From positions 2,356,001 to 2,420,000 of the forward strand of contig NZ_AP023174.1 of the NCBI RefSeq assembly GCF_013426895.1: a DNA stretch of 64,000 nt, written 5' to 3'. Shown here one piece after another: positions 1,083 to 47,266 of this stretch (its first letter is position 1; each line of letters begins with the position of its first letter). The notes under the pieces were generated by a model, which worked only from the letters and a program-made list of their open reading frames with translations, ran no database searches and had not been told where the DNA came from. This DNA is from Paraburkholderia largidicola (GTDB taxonomy: Bacteria; Pseudomonadota; Gammaproteobacteria; Burkholderiales; Burkholderiaceae). The translations under genes and the position numbers were made by a program.

Positions 1083-4000
1083 ATTTGTACCGCGCGCCCA
1101 GCAACGTGACGGGCGTGCCGATCTTCGACACGCGCTGATGCTGAAGGAACACCGCCAGGTGATCGCCGCCCAGCACCGCGCCGGCAATGCCGATACTCAC
1201 GTCCGGTCCCCAGCCCTGAATCGAGTCGTGCACGATGCCCACGTCGAAGAACGGACGCCATGCATGCGTGTACTGCTCGAGCAGATCGTTGCCGAAGCCG
1301 AAGTAGAAGCCGTATTGCGTGTACGTGTCCGGCATGAAGTCCTGCGGCGACGCAGGCTGCAAGGCCGTCGGCAACAGGCGCGTCATCAGCGCGTCGGCCT
1401 GGCCGCTTGCGCCGTAGCCGCCGTGCGTGATCAGCGCGCGCAACGTGTAGTCCGGGTAAGTCGTGCGGATGCGGTAGGTCACTTCCGCTGTCGACAGCAC
1501 GCCGCTGCCGATGTAGTTGCGCGCCTGGCTGTAGAAGCGGTCCGCTTCGACGCTGCCCGTGAGCGTGATGCGTTCGGTCATCCGATACGTCAGATCGCCG
1601 ATCACGTTGTCCTTCATGCCGCCGACCAGCAGTGTCTGGTTTTCATCCGCGACCTGGTTGCGGCCCGCGCGCACGCCGAGCGTGAGCGGCGAGTTGCGCC
1701 CCACTTCGCCCGCGAGATCGAGCGTGTAGAACGCGGCCGAACCGACGCGCCGGCCGCCTGTGATCCTGAACGACGTGTCGCGCGTTTGCCGCTCGCCGTA
1801 GATGTCGAGCCAGCGGTCGACGGACGGCACGTTGACCAGTTGCGTGATGTCGGTCGAATGCTGGAAGTGCTGCACGGCCGTCACGCCGACCAGATAGCGC
1901 TCGGCAATCTTGCGGCTGGCGGCGAGCGTCGTCTCGACGTAATCGAGCGGATGCTCGATGTGATTGACGACATCGGCGTCGATCGATTGCGGCCAGTCGA
2001 GCGTCGTTTCCGTCACGCGCGTATGCAGGTCGGTATCTTCCGGCGCGCCGTCGAGCGCGTTGAACGCGAGTTGCTGCGCGCGGTCCGGACGGTCGACGGC
2101 GATCGTCGCGTCGATGCGGTCGTTGACGGGCAGTCGCGAGCGCTCCACCGCGAGCAGGCGCTCCATCTCGGGGATATTGTTCTCGGCGAGCGCGATGGTC
2201 AGCTGCGCATCGGCGGGACGCGACAGGCGCTCCGCGTATTGCTGCGCGAGCCAGCGTTTCGCCAGCGGATTGCTTTCCTTCGACAACGCCCACGCCACGG
2301 CCACTTCCTTCGCAACGGCACCACGCACGCGCGCGTTCTCGGGCAGGCCGGCGCCGTCCAGCGGCGCGCCGCCCGGCAAGCCCTTCGCCGTGCCGATCAT
2401 CGAGCGGCGCGCGATCGAATTGTCAGCCGATGCGGGCCGCGCCGACATCAGGCTGTCGAGCAGCGCAGCGGACGTATCGCCCGTTGCGTAGTCGGCCGAG
2501 AGCGTCACGCGCCGGCCGCGCAGGTCTTCGAGCGTCTCGGCGTCCTGCGCGGTGCGGCCGCGCATGGCCGCGCGCTGCGCGCCGTGCAGTTTCACGAGCT
2601 GCGCTTCGTCCTGCTGCATCTGCAGCCACACCTTCTTGCGGATCGACCACGCGAGACCGTCGTGACCCGCCTGCTCCTGCGCGTCGGCATAGGTGAGCAG
2701 CCACAGCGGATCGCGCGACATCATCGCCGACTGGCGGCGCAGATATTCGAGCGCGGCGACCGGCCGGTTCAGGCGCATTTCGGCGGCTGCGTAGGGCTCC
2801 CACAAGGCCGAGCTTTGATCGGCACTGCCGCGCCAGCGCTTGAGCGCTTCGCGCAGATCGCCGTCGCTGCCGTAGTCGACCAGCGTCCACAGGTACGCCG
2901 CGCGCAGATCGGAGCTCGCGCCCGGCAGATCGACGGCGCGCTTCAGATCGGCGAGCGCCTTCTGCGGCTCGTTGATCAGGCGATAGTATTCAGCGCGCAC
3001 GCCGAGCAGCGCGGGCGAGGCTTCCGCTGCCTTGCGCTCGTCGGGCGTCAGGCTCGCGAGCAGCGTCGCGATGCGGTCCATCGCCTGCGCGTCGGTGTAG
3101 TAGAAGATTGCGTCCTGCAACGCGCGCACCGTGTGATCGCGGCGATAGCGCAATTCGGCGACACGGCCCGCATCGATCGGATACGGATCGTAGAAGTACG
3201 TCATGTCGCCGAGGTCTTCGGGCGTCGCCGCGCCGCTCGCGATCAGATGGAAATACGCTTCGTTCGCGTCGTCGTCCCGTTGCAGCAGACGCGCGAGTTC
3301 CGCGTAGTTGCGCCAGAAGTCCTCGTCGCTGTCTTTCGCGCCCGCGCGCGCCGTTTTCAGCGCAGCCAGCGACGCACGATAGTCGCCCTGCCGGTACAAC
3401 ACGCTGGCCGTGCGCAGCGCCGCATTCGCGTCGTTCGGATGACGCGCCTGCACCGCGCGATAGGTCGCGAGCGCCTGATCGTCGTGACCCGCGCGCTCGG
3501 CAAGCTGGCCGATGCGTTGATCGATCGCATCGGCATTTGTTGTGCGCGGCAGCGAGCGCAGGAATGCAAGGCCATCGTCGGGACGGCCGAGACGTTCGTA
3601 CGTTGCCGTCACGTTGTCGATCAGCTTCAGGTCGTTCGGCTTGGCGCGCGCCTCGTGCACGAGCGCCGTCAGATAGGCTTCGTCGTCATCGAGCATGGGC
3701 GCGATGCGCAGCACGTTCTGCCAGCCGACCTGATCGTTCGACAGTTGCGCGTAGTCGAGCCACGACTTCAGCGCGAGCGACGGATCGCGATTCCATTCGG
3801 CGACCTGCGCGAGACGCTTGACCCATTCCACCGAACGCGGATCGCGCTGCACCTGCTGCGCGGCGACTTTCTGCGCGCTCGCCAGATCGCCCGATTCGAC
3901 GAAGGCCTGGAATACGACGTTCGCGACGCTCGGGTCCGAACGGATTGCGGAGGCGTCGACGCCGTTCACACTGCTGGCGGCTTGCGGCGCTGACGCTGCT

Positions 4001-5052
4001 GGTGCGACCGGCGCTGCTTGCGTGGCGACGCGGATCACCCGCACTTCGCCCTGCTCTTGCGCGGCTGCCTCACGCATCGCGGCGCGCAGGCTGACGAGCG
4101 AGCCGCCATGCCGGTACGCGACGGGACCATCCATATACGCATAACCCGCTTGCGCCACGCTGCGCACATGCTCGGCGAGCGGCGACGTCGGCTCGGCGAG
4201 CGCGTACTTCGCCAGCAGCTTCGCATAGCGGTCCACAGCGTCCGGACGATTGGCCGCGCGCGCGAGATTGAGCATCACGATGAGCGTGGCGGGATCGTCG
4301 GCGAGCTTGCCGAGATGCGCGTCGGCGGCCGTCAGCGCGTCGTCGAGCAGATTGCCCGACTGCAGCGTGCGCACGCCCGCGACGAAGCAACGGCGCTGCT
4401 CGTCGCGCGTCTGCGCCACGGCTTCCTGACGGAACCATGCGTCGGCGGCTGCGTGATAGTCGCCGACCTGCAGCGCGTAGCGCGTGATCTGCGTGTCCCA
4501 CTTCGTGCGCCCGTCGGGATCGTTGGCCGACAGACGCGCGTACAGACGCGCCGCGAGATCGGGCATGCCGACGGCGGCCGAACGCTGCGCGAGCCACTCC
4601 AGATCCTTCGGCGCCCACGGCAGCTTCGCGGCCTGCGTCAGGCGCGCGCGCAGCTCTTCGAGCGCGGGCGCGCGGCGCGGGTCTTCTTCGGGAATCGCGA
4701 AGGTGCGCTGCTCCGTCACCGACAGATGCAGCATCATCGCGCTGCGCATCATGTCATCGGTGCCGAGCGCTTCCATGCGCGTGGCAATACGTTCGGCGTC
4801 GTCGGTGCGTCCCAGATATAGATACTGGGCGCCCAGCAACGACAGGAATTCTTCGTTGTCGGGCCGCACCTTCGACCACGCTTCCAGATACGCGACGCTC
4901 AACTCGCTCGGCGCGCCGACGGAGGCGACACGCTGACGCAAGCCGCCGCGCGGCGACACGCCGTACATGGTCGCGAGCACCACGCCCGTGAGCGTGTAGA
5001 CGAGCCACGTCGGAACGATACGGGGACGTTTGTCGTTCGTTTTATCGTTCAC
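1072..5052 (-). CDS. pelB: PelB, TPR-rich outer-membrane porin for Pel secretion
   Basis: About 1,326 residues, somewhat longer than the roughly 1,200 of Pseudomonas PelB. The chosen GTG start overlaps the pelA stop by 11 bp and puts a single membrane helix (PTWLVYTLTGVVLATMYGV) near residue 15; a longer open frame upstream lies inside pelA. The middle is Ala/Leu/Tyr-rich helical repeats typical of tetratricopeptide arrays. The last 300 residues alternate in the manner of a beta-barrel and end in an aromatic pair (Phe-Tyr), the outer-membrane sorting signal. In Pel systems the TPR part docks PelA and the barrel is the exit pore. Translationally coupled to pelA. Confidence 0.9.
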   Translation of the reverse strand: MNDKTNDKRPRIVPTWLVYTLTGVVLATMYGVSPRGGLRQRVASVGAPSELSVAYLEAWSKVRPDNEEFLSLLGAQYLYLGRTDDAERIATRMEALGTDDMMRSAMMLHLSVTEQRTFAIPEEDPRRAPALEELRARLTQAAKLPWAPKDLEWLAQRSAAVGMPDLAARLYARLSANDPDGRTKWDTQITRYALQVGDYHAAADAWFRQEAVAQTRDEQRRCFVAGVRTLQSGNLLDDALTAADAHLGKLADDPATLIVMLNLARAANRPDAVDRYAKLLAKYALAEPTSPLAEHVRSVAQAGYAYMDGPVAYRHGGSLVSLRAAMREAAAQEQGEVRVIRVATQAAPVAPAASAPQAASSVNGVDASAIRSDPSVANVVFQAFVESGDLASAQKVAAQQVQRDPRSVEWVKRLAQVAEWNRDPSLALKSWLDYAQLSNDQVGWQNVLRIAPMLDDDEAYLTALVHEARAKPNDLKLIDNVTATYERLGRPDDGLAFLRSLPRTTNADAIDQRIGQLAERAGHDDQALATYRAVQARHPNDANAALRTASVLYRQGDYRASLAALKTARAGAKDSDEDFWRNYAELARLLQRDDDANEAYFHLIASGAATPEDLGDMTYFYDPYPIDAGRVAELRYRRDHTVRALQDAIFYYTDAQAMDRIATLLASLTPDERKAAEASPALLGVRAEYYRLINEPQKALADLKRAVDLPGASSDLRAAYLWTLVDYGSDGDLREALKRWRGSADQSSALWEPYAAAEMRLNRPVAALEYLRRQSAMMSRDPLWLLTYADAQEQAGHDGLAWSIRKKVWLQMQQDEAQLVKLHGAQRAAMRGRTAQDAETLEDLRGRRVTLSADYATGDTSAALLDSLMSARPASADNSIARRSMIGTAKGLPGGAPLDGAGLPENARVRGAVAKEVAVAWALSKESNPLAKRWLAQQYAERLSRPADAQLTIALAENNIPEMERLLAVERSRLPVNDRIDATIAVDRPDRAQQLAFNALDGAPEDTDLHTRVTETTLDWPQSIDADVVNHIEHPLDYVETTLAASRKIAERYLVGVTAVQHFQHSTDITQLVNVPSVDRWLDIYGERQTRDTSFRITGGRRVGSAAFYTLDLAGEVGRNSPLTLGVRAGRNQVADENQTLLVGGMKDNVIGDLTYRMTERITLTGSVEADRFYSQARNYIGSGVLSTAEVTYRIRTTYPDYTLRALITHGGYGASGQADALMTRLLPTALQPASPQDFMPDTYTQYGFYFGFGNDLLEQYTHAWRPFFDVGIVHDSIQGWGPDVSIGIAGAVLGGDHLAVFLQHQRVSKIGTPVTLLGARYKWFY

Positions 5053-14161: not shown

Positions 14162-14551
14162 ATGACCGACGACGAACGCGCCATTCGCCAACTGATCGAT
14201 GACTGGCTCGCCGCAAGCAAGGCGGGCGACACGGCGACCGTGCTGAGCCTGATGACCGACGACGCGATTTTCATGGTGCCTGGGCAGAAGCCGTTCGGCA
14301 AAGCTGCGTTTATGGCAGCGTCCGAAGGGCAGAAGAATGTCGATATCGACGGGAAGAGTGAGATTCTGGAGCTTCAGGTGCTGGGGGATTGGGCGTTCCT
14401 GCGGTCGCAGCTCGAAGTGACTATCACGGTGAGGGATGGCTCCGCGCCGCCAGTGCGTCATGCTGGGAATACACTTACGATTCTGCGCAAGGAGATTGAT
14501 GGACGATGGTTGCTGGCGAGGGATGCGAATTTGCTTGTGGTGGAGGGGTGA
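14162..14551 (+). CDS. SgcJ/EcaC-type SnoaL-like (DUF4440) protein
   Basis: 129 residues, an NTF2-like alpha+beta barrel. It starts after AAGGAA. Motifs are the helix IRQLIDDWLAASKAGD (residues 7-22), the strand MTDDAIFMVPG and a C-terminal WLLARDANLL. Proteins of this group are small cytosolic enzymes or ligand binders with no uniform reaction, often annotated as SgcJ/EcaC oxidoreductases. Convergent with the E1 gene across the large fold-back repeat. Confidence 0.8.
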   Translation: MTDDERAIRQLIDDWLAASKAGDTATVLSLMTDDAIFMVPGQKPFGKAAFMAASEGQKNVDIDGKSEILELQVLGDWAFLRSQLEVTITVRDGSAPPVRHAGNTLTILRKEIDGRWLLARDANLLVVEG

Positions 14552-14601
14552 ACGCTTTTTCGTTGTTCACTTTTGGGTTTTGTTTTTGTTTTGCTGTTTT
14601 G

Positions 14602-14680
14602 CTGGCATCTGCGTGCTTTTGCGCTGGCATCCGCGTGCTTTTGCGCTGGCATCCGCGTGCTTTTGCGCTGGCATCCGCGT
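14602..14680 (+). repeat. 3.6 tandem copies of a 22-bp repeat
   Basis: Unit CTGGCATCCGCGTGCTTTTGCG; the first copy differs by one base (T for C), the last is truncated after CCGCGT and runs into T7. One further copy lies in inverse orientation on the far side of the fold-back element (15308-15327). Confidence 0.92.
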
Positions 14681-14696
14681 TTTTTTAGCGTGCTTC

Positions 14697-15291
14697 AAGC
14701 GTTGCCCCTGTGCGGGGCGGCACCTACTTTTCTTTGCCGCCGCAAAGAAAAGTAGGCAAAAGAAAGCGGCTAACACCGCCAATCCTCGTTACTGCCTGAG
14801 GGCCCCCACAGGGTCTTACACTTCACACGGCAATCACGTCATACATGCTCGCTGCCAGCGCTCTAATGTGCGCCTCACCCGCTTCGTGCTCCCGCGTTTC
14901 GGCATGCCACGCCAGACAGTCCACCGCCGTCCAGGTGGCAAACTGTGTGTCGGCCCGCGTGCTCCACACGCCTTACTTCGGACCGATAGCACACGCGTTC
15001 CACCTGTAAGAGCGCTAACTTATACGACGCGACAACCTACACACAGTTTGCCACCTGGGCGGCACCTACCATTCGCTGCCGTCTGCCGTTGTACGGGTGC
15101 CTGACGCGGGTGATGCGATTGTTCGAAGCGTTGGCAACGGGCAACGAACAACGCGTTACCGTGTGACGTGTGGGGACGTTGAGGGCCCGTGGATAAGCAC
15201 ACGGGCTGGCGGTGTGAGCCGCTTTCTTTTGCCTACTTTTCTTTGCGGCGGCAAAGAAAAGTAGGTGCCGCCCCGCACAGGGGCAACGCTT
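14697..15291. repeat. Large fold-back element with 74-bp perfect inverted terminal arms
   Basis: Arms 14697-14770 and 15218-15291 are perfect reverse complements and continue for about 11 bp more with one mismatch. Each arm contains its own hairpin (CTACTTTTCTTTGC / GCAAAGAAAAGTAG, 4-nt loop). Inside, a 20-bp block ending in ACTGTGTGT (14931-14950) is repeated inverted at 15039-15058, and the stretches between are weakly similar. The structure therefore reads as two diverged copies of a roughly 250-bp element, head to head. No transposase or credible gene lies inside. It separates two convergent genes and could act as a bidirectional terminator or be a mobile repeat relic. Confidence 0.92.
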
Positions 15292-15307
15292 GCGAACCAA
15301 TAACATC

Positions 15308-15327
15308 ACGCGGATGCCAGCGCAAAA
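15308..15327 (-). repeat. Single inverse copy of the 22-bp tandem unit
   Basis: ACGCGGATGCCAGCGCAAAA is the reverse complement of the unit repeated at 14602-14680, extending the inverted symmetry beyond the 74-bp arms. Confidence 0.9.
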
Positions 15328-15383
15328 AACCAAAACCACCACCCCAGCGTCGCAGACATAAAAAAACCTAACCCGAAAACCCA

Positions 15384-18107
15384 TCACCTTTCCCAAGGCG
15401 TAGCCTTACCACCCCCAACCAACCCATACTGCTCGCGCGCACGCGCAACAACATCACGCGCAATCGCGCCCTCATCAACGAGAGCCTTCAAAGCCGCAAT
15501 CACAATCGACGCACGGTCGACCTCAAAGAACGCCCGCAGCGCCGCGCGCGTATCGCTACGTCCGAATCCATCCGTCCCAAGCGTCACATAACGCCGCGGC
15601 ACATACGCGCGAATCAGCTCGGGCACGGCCCGCACGTAATCGGTTGCGGCAACCACCGGACCACGCGATGCAGCAAGCGCAGACGTCACATACGGCGTCG
15701 CCGTTTCACCATCATCGAACAGGCGCTCGGCGCGCTCCGCCGCGGCCCCATCGCGATGCAACTCGGTAAAGCTCGTTACGCTCCATACAGCGGCGTCGAT
15801 GTTCCAGTCGTTCTTCAACATGCGGGCGGCCGCCTGCACTTCGCCGAGTATCGCGCCCGAACCCAGCAACTGGACCTGCGCGGTCTCCAGCGAAGAAACT
15901 TCCAGTGGGTACATGCCCTTCAGCACGCCTTCGCGCACGCGATCAACAGAAGCCGCAGGCAATGAAGGCTGCGCATAGTTCTCGTTCGTGACGGTCAGGT
16001 AATAGAACACGTCCCGCTGTCGCCCGATCATTTCTTGCATGCCTTCGTCGACGATCATTGCCACTTCATAGGCGAACGCGGGATCGTACGCGCGGCAGTT
16101 AGGCACCGTCGATGCCGCGAGATGGCTCGTGCCGTCCTGATGCTGCAAGCCCTCGCCGCCGAGCGTCGTCTTGCCCGCCGTCGCACCGACCAGAAAGCCT
16201 CGCGCGCGCTGATCGGCGGCTGCCCAGATCAGATCGCCGATGCGCTGGAAGCCGAACATCGAGTAGTAGATGTAGAACGGCAGCATGGGCAGATCGTGAA
16301 CGCTGTACGACGTCGCCGCCGCGATCCACGACGACACCGCGCCCGCCTCCGAAATGCCCTCTTCGAGAATCTGCCCGCCCGTGTCTTCGCGGTAGTACAG
16401 CATCGAGCCCATGTCTTCCGGCTCGTACAACTGGCCAAGCGGCGAATAGATGCCGACCTGGCGGAACAGGTTCGCCATGCCGAAGGTGCGCGCCTCGTCG
16501 GCGACCACGGGCACGACCCGAGGCCCAAGCGACGCATCCTTCAACAGACTGCCGAGCATGCGCACGATCGCCATCGTCGTCGACATCTCCTTGCCGTTCG
16601 CGTCCAGCGCGAATTGCCCCCAGGAAGACATCGCAGGCACGGTCGGTGTCTGCGATGCCGCTTTCCGCCTTCTGGGCAGATAGCCTCCCAAGGCAGCCCG
16701 GCGTGCATGCAGGTACTGCATTTCCGGGCTGTTTTCCGCTGGCTTGTAGAACTTGAGCTGCTCGACGTCGCTATCGGACAACGGCAGGCGAAAGCGGTCG
16801 CGGAACGTCTTCAACTGCTCGACGTCGAGCTTTTTCTGCTGGTGCGTCGTCATGCGCCCCTGGCCGATCGCGCCCATGCCGAAGCCCTTCATCGTCTTCG
16901 CAAGAATCACCGTGGGCTGGCCGCTGTGCTTCAACGCGCGGTCATACGCAGCGTGCAGCTTGCGCACGTCGTGGCCGCCGCGCCGCAAGCGGTCGATATC
17001 GTCGTTGCTCAGATGCGCGGCGAGCGCGGCCAGCTCCGGGTTCTGTCCGAAGAAACGTTCGCGGTTGTAGGCGCCGTCGTTGGCCGAGAAGGTCTGGAAC
17101 TGGCCGTCGACCGTATGTGCGAACGCGCGCAGCAAGGCCCCCGTACGATCGCGCGCAAACAGGGCATCCCAGTCCGAGCCCCATACGACCTTGATGACGT
17201 TCCAGCCCGCGCCCGTGAACTGCGCTTCGAGTTCGTCGATGATGCGGCCATTGCTGCGCACAGGACCATCGAGCCGCTGCAGATTGCAGTTGATCACGAA
17301 CACCAGATTGTCGAGGCCTTCGCGCGCCGCCAGGGACAACGCGCCGATCGATTCCGGCTCGTCCATCTCGCCATCGCCGAAGAAGCCCCACACCTTGCGG
17401 CCTTCCGTCTTCTGCAGGCCGCGGTTTTGCAGGTAGCGCATGAAGCGCGCCTGGTAAATCGAGTTGATGGGACCGATGCCCATCGAGCCCGTCGGGAACT
17501 GCCAGAAGTCCGGCATCAGCCACGGATGCGGATACGAACACAAGCCCGGCCCCGCGATCTCACGGCGGTAATGTTCGAGATGCGTCTCGTCGAGAAAGCC
17601 TTCGAGGAAGGCACGCGCATACACGCCCGGTGACGAATGCGGCTGGAAGTAGACGAGATCGCCGCCATGCCCGTCGCCGACCTGATTCGCGGCGCGGAAG
17701 AAATGATTGAAGCCAACTTCGAACAGATCCGCCGCCGACGCATAGCTGGCGATATGGCCGCCCAGTTCGCCGTACGCGCGATTGGCCCGCACCACCATCG
17801 CGAGCGCGTTCCAGCGCAATGCAGCGGCGAGCTTTTCCTCGGTGTCGAGGTCGCCTGGATACGGCGGCTGCTGATCGACGGAAATCGTATTCGCGTACGG
17901 CGTGACATTCGCGCGCGCCGTCGCAACCCCATTGCCAAGCGCATGTGCGGCCAGCCGGTCGAACAGATATTGCGCGCGTTCGAGGCCGACGTGCTGGACG
18001 ACGCCATCGAGCGCAGTCAGCCATTCGGCCGTCTCCTGCGGATCGCTGTCGATGCGAGCTCGAGTGAGGGCAAGAACGGGGCGGGCACCGCTCGATAAGT
18101 CCGTCAT
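15384..18107 (-). CDS. Homodimeric pyruvate-dehydrogenase-type E1 (AceE/MdeB-like), orphan
   Basis: 907 residues, the length of E. coli AceE. The thiamine-pyrophosphate motif GDGEMDEPES begins near residue 244 and ends in NCN about 25 residues later. The ATG has a GGAG site. In the usual operon aceE is followed by aceF and lpd; here neither is present. Instead the gene is divergent from an Lrp/AsnC regulator. This recalls Pseudomonas putida mdeR-mdeB, where an Lrp-type regulator controls an AceE-like 2-ketobutyrate dehydrogenase E1 used after methionine gamma-lyase; no mdeA is visible here. The substrate (pyruvate or 2-oxobutyrate) is therefore open. It would need to borrow E2 and E3 from elsewhere. 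Confidence 0.85.
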   Translation of the reverse strand: MTDLSSGARPVLALTRARIDSDPQETAEWLTALDGVVQHVGLERAQYLFDRLAAHALGNGVATARANVTPYANTISVDQQPPYPGDLDTEEKLAAALRWNALAMVVRANRAYGELGGHIASYASAADLFEVGFNHFFRAANQVGDGHGGDLVYFQPHSSPGVYARAFLEGFLDETHLEHYRREIAGPGLCSYPHPWLMPDFWQFPTGSMGIGPINSIYQARFMRYLQNRGLQKTEGRKVWGFFGDGEMDEPESIGALSLAAREGLDNLVFVINCNLQRLDGPVRSNGRIIDELEAQFTGAGWNVIKVVWGSDWDALFARDRTGALLRAFAHTVDGQFQTFSANDGAYNRERFFGQNPELAALAAHLSNDDIDRLRRGGHDVRKLHAAYDRALKHSGQPTVILAKTMKGFGMGAIGQGRMTTHQQKKLDVEQLKTFRDRFRLPLSDSDVEQLKFYKPAENSPEMQYLHARRAALGGYLPRRRKAASQTPTVPAMSSWGQFALDANGKEMSTTMAIVRMLGSLLKDASLGPRVVPVVADEARTFGMANLFRQVGIYSPLGQLYEPEDMGSMLYYREDTGGQILEEGISEAGAVSSWIAAATSYSVHDLPMLPFYIYYSMFGFQRIGDLIWAAADQRARGFLVGATAGKTTLGGEGLQHQDGTSHLAASTVPNCRAYDPAFAYEVAMIVDEGMQEMIGRQRDVFYYLTVTNENYAQPSLPAASVDRVREGVLKGMYPLEVSSLETAQVQLLGSGAILGEVQAAARMLKNDWNIDAAVWSVTSFTELHRDGAAAERAERLFDDGETATPYVTSALAASRGPVVAATDYVRAVPELIRAYVPRRYVTLGTDGFGRSDTRAALRAFFEVDRASIVIAALKALVDEGAIARDVVARAREQYGLVGGGKATPWER

Positions 18108-43273: not shown

Positions 43274-43333
43274 AAGCCCTGTTTTTCAGGGCTAAAAGTA
43301 AAAGGCCTTCATCGTCGGATGAAGGCCTTTTTT
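43274..43333 (+). terminator. Two-hairpin terminator after exbD
   Basis: A short stem AGCCCT/AGGGCT (43275-43293) is followed by a strong stem AAAGGCCTTCATC/GATGAAGGCCTTT with T6. The second hairpin is the effective rho-independent terminator. Confidence 0.92.
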
Positions 43334-43364
43334 CATGCGCACTCGGCGCCTTCGGGCGGTGGGA

Positions 43365-43481
43365 TCATTTACCATTGCTTGTGCTCTGGACCTGATCACC
43401 ACATGCGAAAGCCGTGGTCGACACGGACAACGCGGTCAGCCCTATCAGGCTCACTATCAAAGCGGCCGTGATTTTTCGCAT
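43365..43481 (-). CDS. 38-residue secreted peptide
   Basis: MRKITAALIVSLIGLTAL leads into a signal peptide cut after AFA, leaving a mature peptide of about 13 residues (CGDQVQSTSNGK-like tail with a single Cys). The Cys at the cleavage point (TAFAC) makes a lipoprotein also possible. AAGGAG lies six bases before the ATG, which strongly supports translation. No known family. Confidence 0.65.
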   Translation of the reverse strand: MRKITAALIVSLIGLTALSVSTTAFACGDQVQSTSNGK

Positions 43482-43632
43482 AGGAGACTCCTTAGCGAAG
43501 GGATTTCAATATAAGCCCGTGAGCTTTTCCATTCAAGCCTGCGGCCATTGAAAGTATCCATCGCCGGCCGCGCTTGCATGGCGAAAAGGTATTTCACTTC
43601 CTGCGCGCGCGTGAAAGTCCGCGCCGCATTCG

Positions 43633-47119: not shown

Positions 47120-47145
47120 CGAATAGCTGTAGTACCGAGTATTGT

Positions 47146-47266
47146 GGGGACCACCTCCCAGAGAGGTGTTGGGCACTAGCCAGCCACGACGGCTTGCACG
47201 CGAGATCTAGACCCCTTCGTGCAGACACCAAGCCAGCCGTCGAAGCAAGCCAGGCCGTTTTTTTTG
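47146..47266 (+). ncRNA. Candidate sRNA or 3'UTR RNA downstream of hemP
   Basis: A small hairpin CACCTC-N5-GAGGTG (47152-47168), then CGACGGCT/AGCCGTCG (47187-47194 with 47235-47242) containing TGCACG/CGTGCA. An alternative helix, GGCTTGC/GCAAGCC (47191-47197 with 47245-47251), excludes the previous one and is followed by T8 (47258-47265). The placement after a Fur-controlled hemP resembles the B. cenocepacia iron-response sRNA BrrF as I recall it; I cannot confirm identity. Confidence 0.6.

Follow-up and report, generated by a model that had tools for sequence, protein, structure and literature searches.

A fold-back element of two inverted halves lies between convergent genes in Paraburkholderia largidicola. 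It raises the question of whether such a sequence belongs to a repeat family, terminates transcription or serves chromosome structure, and of what has kept its arms alike. These possibilities were put forward in a first-pass annotation of the window, meaning the entire 64,000-nt stretch of DNA analyzed here, to which coordinates refer unless a locus or replicon is named.

Layout of the element and extent of its family

The element is a near-complete imperfect palindrome that matches its own reverse complement with 72% identity over 688 nt. Its core, from inner terminal inverted repeat (TIR) to inner TIR, occupies positions 14661-15327 and aligns full length with 38 other copies. The 148-nt arms (14661-14808 and 15180-15327) are 84% complementary and contain a nested, perfect 74-nt inverted pair (14697-14770 and 15218-15291). 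Both arms hold a hairpin with GCAAAGAAAAGTAGG at 14723-14756 and 15232-15265; this arm hairpin gave four matches versus 0.01 expected from shuffles when up to two mismatches were allowed. Closer to the center, a 28-nt block at 14926-14953 (+ strand) is repeated in inverted orientation at 15036-15063 (- strand) with 93% identity. The flanking genes are convergent, as the stop of a SnoaL/DUF4440-like gene at 14551 faces that of a pyruvate dehydrogenase E1 gene on the - strand at 15384. The first-pass annotation was therefore correct in describing perfect 74-bp arms with internal hairpins, an inverted inner block and two paired halves between convergent genes. Its placement of a 22-bp tandem unit on both sides holds for the left side, where four copies occupy 14592-14679 (+ strand) and the exact inner TIR CGCTGGCATCCGCG occurs at 14622, 14644 and 14666; the right side carries a single diverged copy. 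The right inner TIR is found at 15309-15322 (- strand). An outer TIR, TCTGCGACGCTGG on the - strand, follows at 15344-15356, past the end previously set at 15327, with an A-tract at 15360-15366 after it. With the left tandem end and the right outer inverted repeat included, the whole element spans 14592-15357, its left limit being uncertain. Open reading frames run across the element; the repeat is apparently non-coding. A scan for sigma-70 promoters found none in the element interior.

In the P. largidicola genome (G000), the 15-nt arm core GCAAAGAAAAGTAGG was matched 355 times on the forward and 354 times on the reverse strand, with no matches to a backward control. The first 100 arm matches listed comprised 43 pairs spaced 506-514 bp apart, 5 pairs spaced 1.6-1.8 kb apart and 4 unpaired arms, such that 96 of these 100 were in inverted pairs. 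This count and pairing suggest about 175 elements in the genome. The exact pair pattern was passed by 39 of 41 loci and all 39 align full length, the other 38 copies having 76-90% identity to the window copy. About 75 nt per arm are nearly invariant among copies. The exact arm core was present in 34 of 58 genus genomes (own genome included), with 0 to 370 forward matches per genome, and, among 299 family genomes, the exact 34-nt hairpin occurred in 13, which include the own genome and belong without exception to its genus. The suggestion of a Burkholderiaceae repeat family is thus borne out, since the arms are numerous in their own genome and also occur in other genera, rather than being confined to this locus. 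A chromosome-structure role gained no support, because the spacing of 52 places from the first 100 matches listed was as irregular as random (CV 0.94), and even spacing among them was rejected.

Copies were also found in plasmid records of P. caribensis, P. largidicola and Paraburkholderia sp. PGU19 and 22B1P (83-88% identity over 90-98% of the query) and of P. phymatum (69% over 77% of the query). Matches in Caballeronia and Burkholderia plasmid records covered 9-26% of the query, as arm pieces. A 70-kb plasmid of Paraburkholderia terrae carries a partial element covering 40% of the query (L088, 914-1211), and plasmids may therefore act as carriers. Phages gave no match to the element, and a search of the open-access literature for the letters of the core returned only unrelated papers.

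A predicted triple-helix pseudoknot in the arms

Each 48-bp arm can be fitted to an H-type pseudoknot containing a pyrimidine triple helix, arranged 5' S1a - T1 TTTCTTTT - T2 TTTTCTTT - loop with S1b - R AAAGAAAA. Outward along the arm, S1a and T1 are followed by the lower stem and T2, then by the loop with S1b, by R, by the lower stem again and finally by a further hairpin, HP2. T1 mirrors the sequence of T2 and consequently matches R by pyrimidine-type Hoogsteen rules. In the proposed fold, T1 would lie along R of the T2:R hairpin and S1a would pair with the loop, and HP2 would come after this structure. The right arm unit (15218-15265, + strand) consists of S1a at 15218-15222, T1 at 15223-15230, a lower stem at 15232-15236/15261-15265, T2 at 15237-15244, S1b at 15245-15249 and R at 15253-15260, with HP2 at 15270-15284 (+ strand). 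In the left arm unit (14723-14770, - strand) the corresponding parts are S1a at 14766-14770, T1 at 14758-14765, the lower stem at 14752-14756/14723-14727, T2 at 14744-14751, S1b at 14739-14743 and R at 14728-14735, with HP2 (GCCCC-loop-GGGGC) at 14704-14718 (- strand).

The evidence for this fold comes from comparison among copies. In a scan that placed no condition on T1, the tract was present in 268 of 283 distinct contexts, the majority of which came from three close genomes. The 15 contexts scored without T1 were 10 keying duplicates in which T1 lies on the opposite strand (the key being split by loops of odd length), three IS30 junctions (L011-L013), one lengthened T2 (L165) and one context truly without T1 (L178). 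T1, T2 and R co-vary in four concordant forms, namely TTTCTTTT/TTTTCTTT/AAAGAAAA in 32 sources, a 7-nt form in 6, a C-shifted form in 3 and a two-C form in 2. Across 35 distinct combinations of S1 and loop, 4.29 of 5 positions were paired versus 2.69 after shuffling, and none of 5000 shuffles reached as high a value. S1 pairing was weak in some units: two of five positions in L084, L085, L199, L209 and L014, three in L197 and L204, and none in L177 under a strict register. An alignment of 45 distinct units, in which related rows inflate the pairing and covariation scores, had 96.1% of cells paired versus 80.6% in shuffles, both-side changes in 113 cells versus 31.3, and a covariation of 0.379 versus 0.113 (at most 0.080 in a slid register). 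One of the five measures, further pair types in these 45 units, was not raised (23 versus 21.6 in shuffles; 140/500). This three-way and pairwise covariation supports the prediction that a single-stranded arm adopts a pyrimidine intrastrand triplex within an H-type pseudoknot. A covarying RNA fold of the whole element was considered and rejected, as the covariation term was a negligible -0.93 of -261 and involved 9 of 169 pairs.

Wobble pairs were counted in order to ask which nucleic acid the fold concerns. Among 804 cells, the pyrimidine strand gave 14 G.U versus 4 A.C, along with 27 other mismatches, and 8 of the 14 G.U cells fell in one column pair. This bias weakly favors an RNA of the pyrimidine strand.

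The strand order of the arm unit recalls telomerase RNA, whose pseudoknot runs stem 1, U-rich loop, stem 2, loop and purine strand with U.A-U triples; no sequence kinship is claimed. Among bacteria, intrastrand triplex repeats are known, and the one studied, the G/C-rich TM of E. coli, has been linked to instability, although its stable folding was not seen in cells (PMC4666352). The arm resembles the BoxC/PIT/TM repeats in having three tracts on one strand with a Hoogsteen match, and some of those repeats also form inverted pairs (PMC4666352). By sequence its third tract qualifies it for their class IV, which has the same Hoogsteen-pyrimidine-purine order (PMC4666352). Unlike TM, which is of the G/C-rich purine type, the arm is of the A/T-rich pyrimidine type and has an extra pseudoknot stem, a lower stem and HP2, and its loop of 8 nt exceeds the 1-6 nt limit of the search for such repeats (PMC4666352). 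Within that article, a word search for "burkholder" turned up an author's name alone. The first-pass annotation did not notice a triple-helix pseudoknot, nor the units in other genera and the likeness to Rfam RF02421 described below. What would be new here is the pseudoknot fit of the 48-bp arm, a predicted structure supported by covariation. If true, it would be a covarying triple-helix pseudoknot occurring naturally in bacteria, with hundreds of copies in some genomes, and its folding, partner and use could be tested by base swaps.

Location, mobility and exchange between copies

Gene context, as called with a home-made gene caller, was convergent for 22 and co-directional for 17 of the 39 copies read, and divergent for none; the baseline in the window was 10 divergent pairs among 49 pairs of neighboring genes. 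The co-directional sites were 14 of the -- and 3 of the ++ orientation. In 26 of the 39 copies, the inner-TIR edge was no more than 60 bp from the facing stop. This location at gene 3' ends would be expected of a bidirectional terminator or 3'-end stabilizer under selection between convergent genes. An inward-reading T-tract accompanies the element, and T5 within 25 nt past the stop was found for 2 of 50 called window genes, both of them neighbors of the element. Six terminator-like sites were found versus 1.9 in shuffles, two of them consisting of HP2 and a T-rich tract reading inward from both sides, as consensus matches only. Against a terminator stands a site that is empty in P. largidicola (L092). 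The empty sequence was matched in a single piece in G000, G019, G020 and G004, and in two pieces with a gap of 0.7-0.9 kb in G041, G052 and G042. In G052 and G041 an intrinsic terminator was read, with the element directly past its T-tract, and the terminator was also read in G000, G020 and G004. The terminator role suggested earlier is thus not established, given that at this site an intrinsic terminator is present in element-bearing and empty-site genomes alike. The exact arm core is moreover absent from 24 of the 58 genus genomes, and L101 has by eye lost the hairpin that would make T1 a U-tract, yet kept its S1-loop pairing. We regard selection for termination or 3'-end stability as an unlikely explanation. 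An FMN riboswitch lies about 1 kb from one copy (L056, 1016-1186).

The occurrence of both empty and filled sites in relatives (two of the first seven sites of G052 were empty in P. largidicola, so the family is not entirely fixed in place) is consistent with a mobile element such as a MITE of some insertion sequence with ends GTCTGCGACGCTGG. Terminal inverted repeats are indeed present, the inner TIR at 74 of 78 ends and the outer TIR at 34 of 78, versus 1 in a reversed control. A derivation of this kind is nonetheless improbable in view of several observations. Outer ends are variable and G/T-rich, and no target duplication was found at the L092 site, the only empty site examined closely, where empty and filled versions differed by about 23 bp by eye; a second site was too diverged. 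The first-pass annotation had reported no transposase inside the element, and this extends to the copies read, none of which had a transposase of its own; no linked transposase was found. Among the places listed and read, which comprise a minority of the 355 arms, no autonomous element with identical ends was present. The five stretched pairs of P. largidicola, considered as autonomous copies, instead hold IS481- or IS30-like genes, and those in relatives hold IS256-like or IS66 genes, so the repeat seems to be a landing site for insertion sequences. The genes inside elements were IS30-like in L011-L013, IS256-like in L192-L194 (and by eye in L196) and IS66 in L195; Pfam was applied to L010, L011, L192 and L195 among the IS-bearing copies. 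An IS481-like element occupies the arm-hairpin loop in three copies (L009 ~1515-2792, L010 ~1335-2612 and L014 ~2728-4005), the insertion being flanked on either side by CGGCGG (or CCGCCG). Runs like (GGTTTT)n or (GGGGTTTT)n, T/G-rich inwards, border some copies (flanks of L042, L046, L057 and L066). Element ends that appear tandemly duplicated at intervals of about 102-107 bp occur in P. largidicola on C2 (2125222-2125448, 1983509-1983625 and 455505-455620) and on C1 (499608, 1153526 and 1288991).

A second kind of mobility is that of REP sequences and REPINs, in which the arms would be REPs with a GTAG tag, mobilized by a RAYT tyrosine transposase that works on single-stranded hairpins. REPs are 20-40 bp long, many are GTAG-tagged, and most lie at gene 3' ends, those between convergent genes adjoining both open reading frames (PMC3733652); every RAYT gene is described as having inverted REPs on either side (PMC2817692). 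In the present family, the copies listed or read are likewise extragenic inverted doublets at gene 3' ends, a location bias similar to that reported for REPs, and the family shares with the GTAG and CGTC superfamilies of REPs, BIMEs and REPINs an occurrence in convergent and co-directional gaps, a high copy number and an uneven distribution among species (PMC3733652; PMC3116915, PMC2817692). GTAG is found beside the HP2 palindrome in the P. largidicola arms, and this mechanism also agrees with the single site read, which lacks a target duplication. The tag is not kept in relatives, being GTAA or GTGA in Burkholderia and Caballeronia, and an element of ~670-750 bp with a conserved arm of ~75 nt differs in size from the 20-40 bp REP unit (PMC3733652). 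The family also differs in having no RAYT gene flanked by its arms and in the predicted triplex pseudoknot within them. Two Y1_Tnp matches were found in the P. largidicola genome, and arms were absent from their 3.2-3.3 kb loci, i.e. within about 1.5 kb; one locus (L070) had one weak inner-TIR-like word with two mismatches. A Y1_Tnp match was present in all 58 genus genomes irrespective of arm count. RAYT was rejected as a simple mover on the evidence of these Y1_Tnp genes, and membership of the family among REPs and REPINs is quite unlikely. The family resembles both REP/REPIN and intrastrand-triplex repeats, and fits neither fully.

Copies were compared at 20 chosen sites in P. largidicola and two relatives, where flanks were 86-96% identical, with one flank unmatched at three sites. 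Interiors at these shared sites averaged 0.794 and 0.807 for orthologs versus 0.779 and 0.794 for non-orthologous copies, and the ortholog was the top-ranked interior match in 2 of 20, 2 of 18 and 2 of 18 cases. The best-matching orientation was reversed in 9 of 38 ortholog comparisons. Because ortholog interiors are no closer than random copies, copies seem to overwrite one another at shared sites. L045 and L046 shared the maximum identity, 98.7%, with their orthologs at 76-79%; L053 and L055 have interiors 98% alike with different ends, L038 and L039 have one half in common, and the center is inverted by eye in L030, L043 and L044. Ectopic gene conversion, together with flips between nested inverted repeats, would be the best account of these patterns. 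A burst just before speciation could equalize ortholog and paralog distances but not yield near-identical paralogs. It had been proposed earlier that the arms are held by selection or gene conversion; gene conversion is supported by the comparison of copies, with the qualification that the interiors were exchanged as well. Among nine spacers from other lineages, eight had no match to eight P. largidicola copies, and each of these eight had a self-inverted match (67-90% over 29-359 nt), which spanned almost the entire spacer in L101 and L083 only. The ninth, from L072, had short matches to P. largidicola copies and no self-inversion. If this is right, a repeat with sites common to several species and sequence that passes from site to site would offer a system for measuring bacterial ectopic gene conversion.

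Single units, a catalogued sRNA and the origin of the family

With the own genome counted, 17 of the 321 class genomes, in 15 of 243 genera, had the hairpin pattern, with no match to the control, and 7 of the 399 order genomes had a stricter pattern. Fifteen loci were read in 11 of the other 16 class genomes; the mirror tract was present in 14, and in most of these loci the position of HP2 is taken by a GC hairpin with another sequence. Eight lone units were checked for aceF and lpdA. Four lay between both genes (L084 of B. cepacia, by annotation; L014 of P. largidicola; L199; L209), all in Burkholderiaceae, and four did not (L085, L197, L200 and L204). The pyrimidine strand was antisense to aceF and lpdA in all four genomes, which is at odds with a cis-acting role in that mRNA.

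Two of these units, L084 and L085, matched Rfam RF02421 (Bp1_684 sRNA) with 118.8 and 92.9 bits, above the cut-off of 44. The window arms scored below this gathering cut-off, at 39.3 bits (15255-15353, + strand) and 34.4 bits (14618-14733, - strand). Bp1_Cand684 is among the Burkholderia sRNA genes validated by RT-PCR, with its locus named as pdhB and lpdA (PMC3521395). The RF02421 model corresponds to R, HP2 and the outer stretch of the arm unit; it begins at R and omits S1a, T1 and T2. The previously catalogued part of the arm unit is thus its 3' half only, as an sRNA, and the unit would, if the proposed fold is right, complete a model that omits half of the structure. Elsewhere in the window, the Burkholderia sRNAs BTH_s39 and ncS011 were matched at 47139-47266 (+) and 43297-43504 (-), respectively.

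Detection of Bp1_684 by RT-PCR (PMC3521395) also bears on whether the arms may act solely as DNA, as an H-DNA-like triplex and fragile site that drives recombination, with RNA being irrelevant. Mirror repeats are compatible with DNA and RNA alike, intrastrand triplex repeats have been tied to instability (PMC4666352), and both the exchanged interiors and the IS insertions at the arms would suit such a site. Since the G.U over A.C bias points weakly to RNA, as does the RT-PCR result, we view a DNA-only triplex as possible though doubtful.

Taken as a whole, the material is explained best, and with moderate probability, by a non-autonomous, triplex-armed repeat that spread in REPIN-like fashion and is now subject to gene conversion. 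It would be a high-copy repeat at gene 3' ends, with two conserved, outward inverted arm units around a faster-changing spacer. A trans-acting partner may recognize the arm unit as a structured nucleic acid. The arm pair would first have spread as a REPIN-like selfish element, moved by some enzyme and inserting behind genes, and would now largely stay in place and be mixed by gene conversion. Single units may have been recruited to host use, perhaps between aceF and lpdA. We are evenly balanced on the more specific proposal of a bacterial RNA or single-stranded DNA triplex pseudoknot of telomerase order that is scattered over the class and, in Paraburkholderia, was paired into a very large palindrome, amplified in this genome to about 175 copies and mixed by gene conversion. 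Arm units also occur around other sequence, as in a class relative where two outward inverted units (L182, 471-1745) surround 1.2 kb with a 159-codon frame (785-1261); the product of this frame resembles a membrane protein by eye and is a possible cargo.
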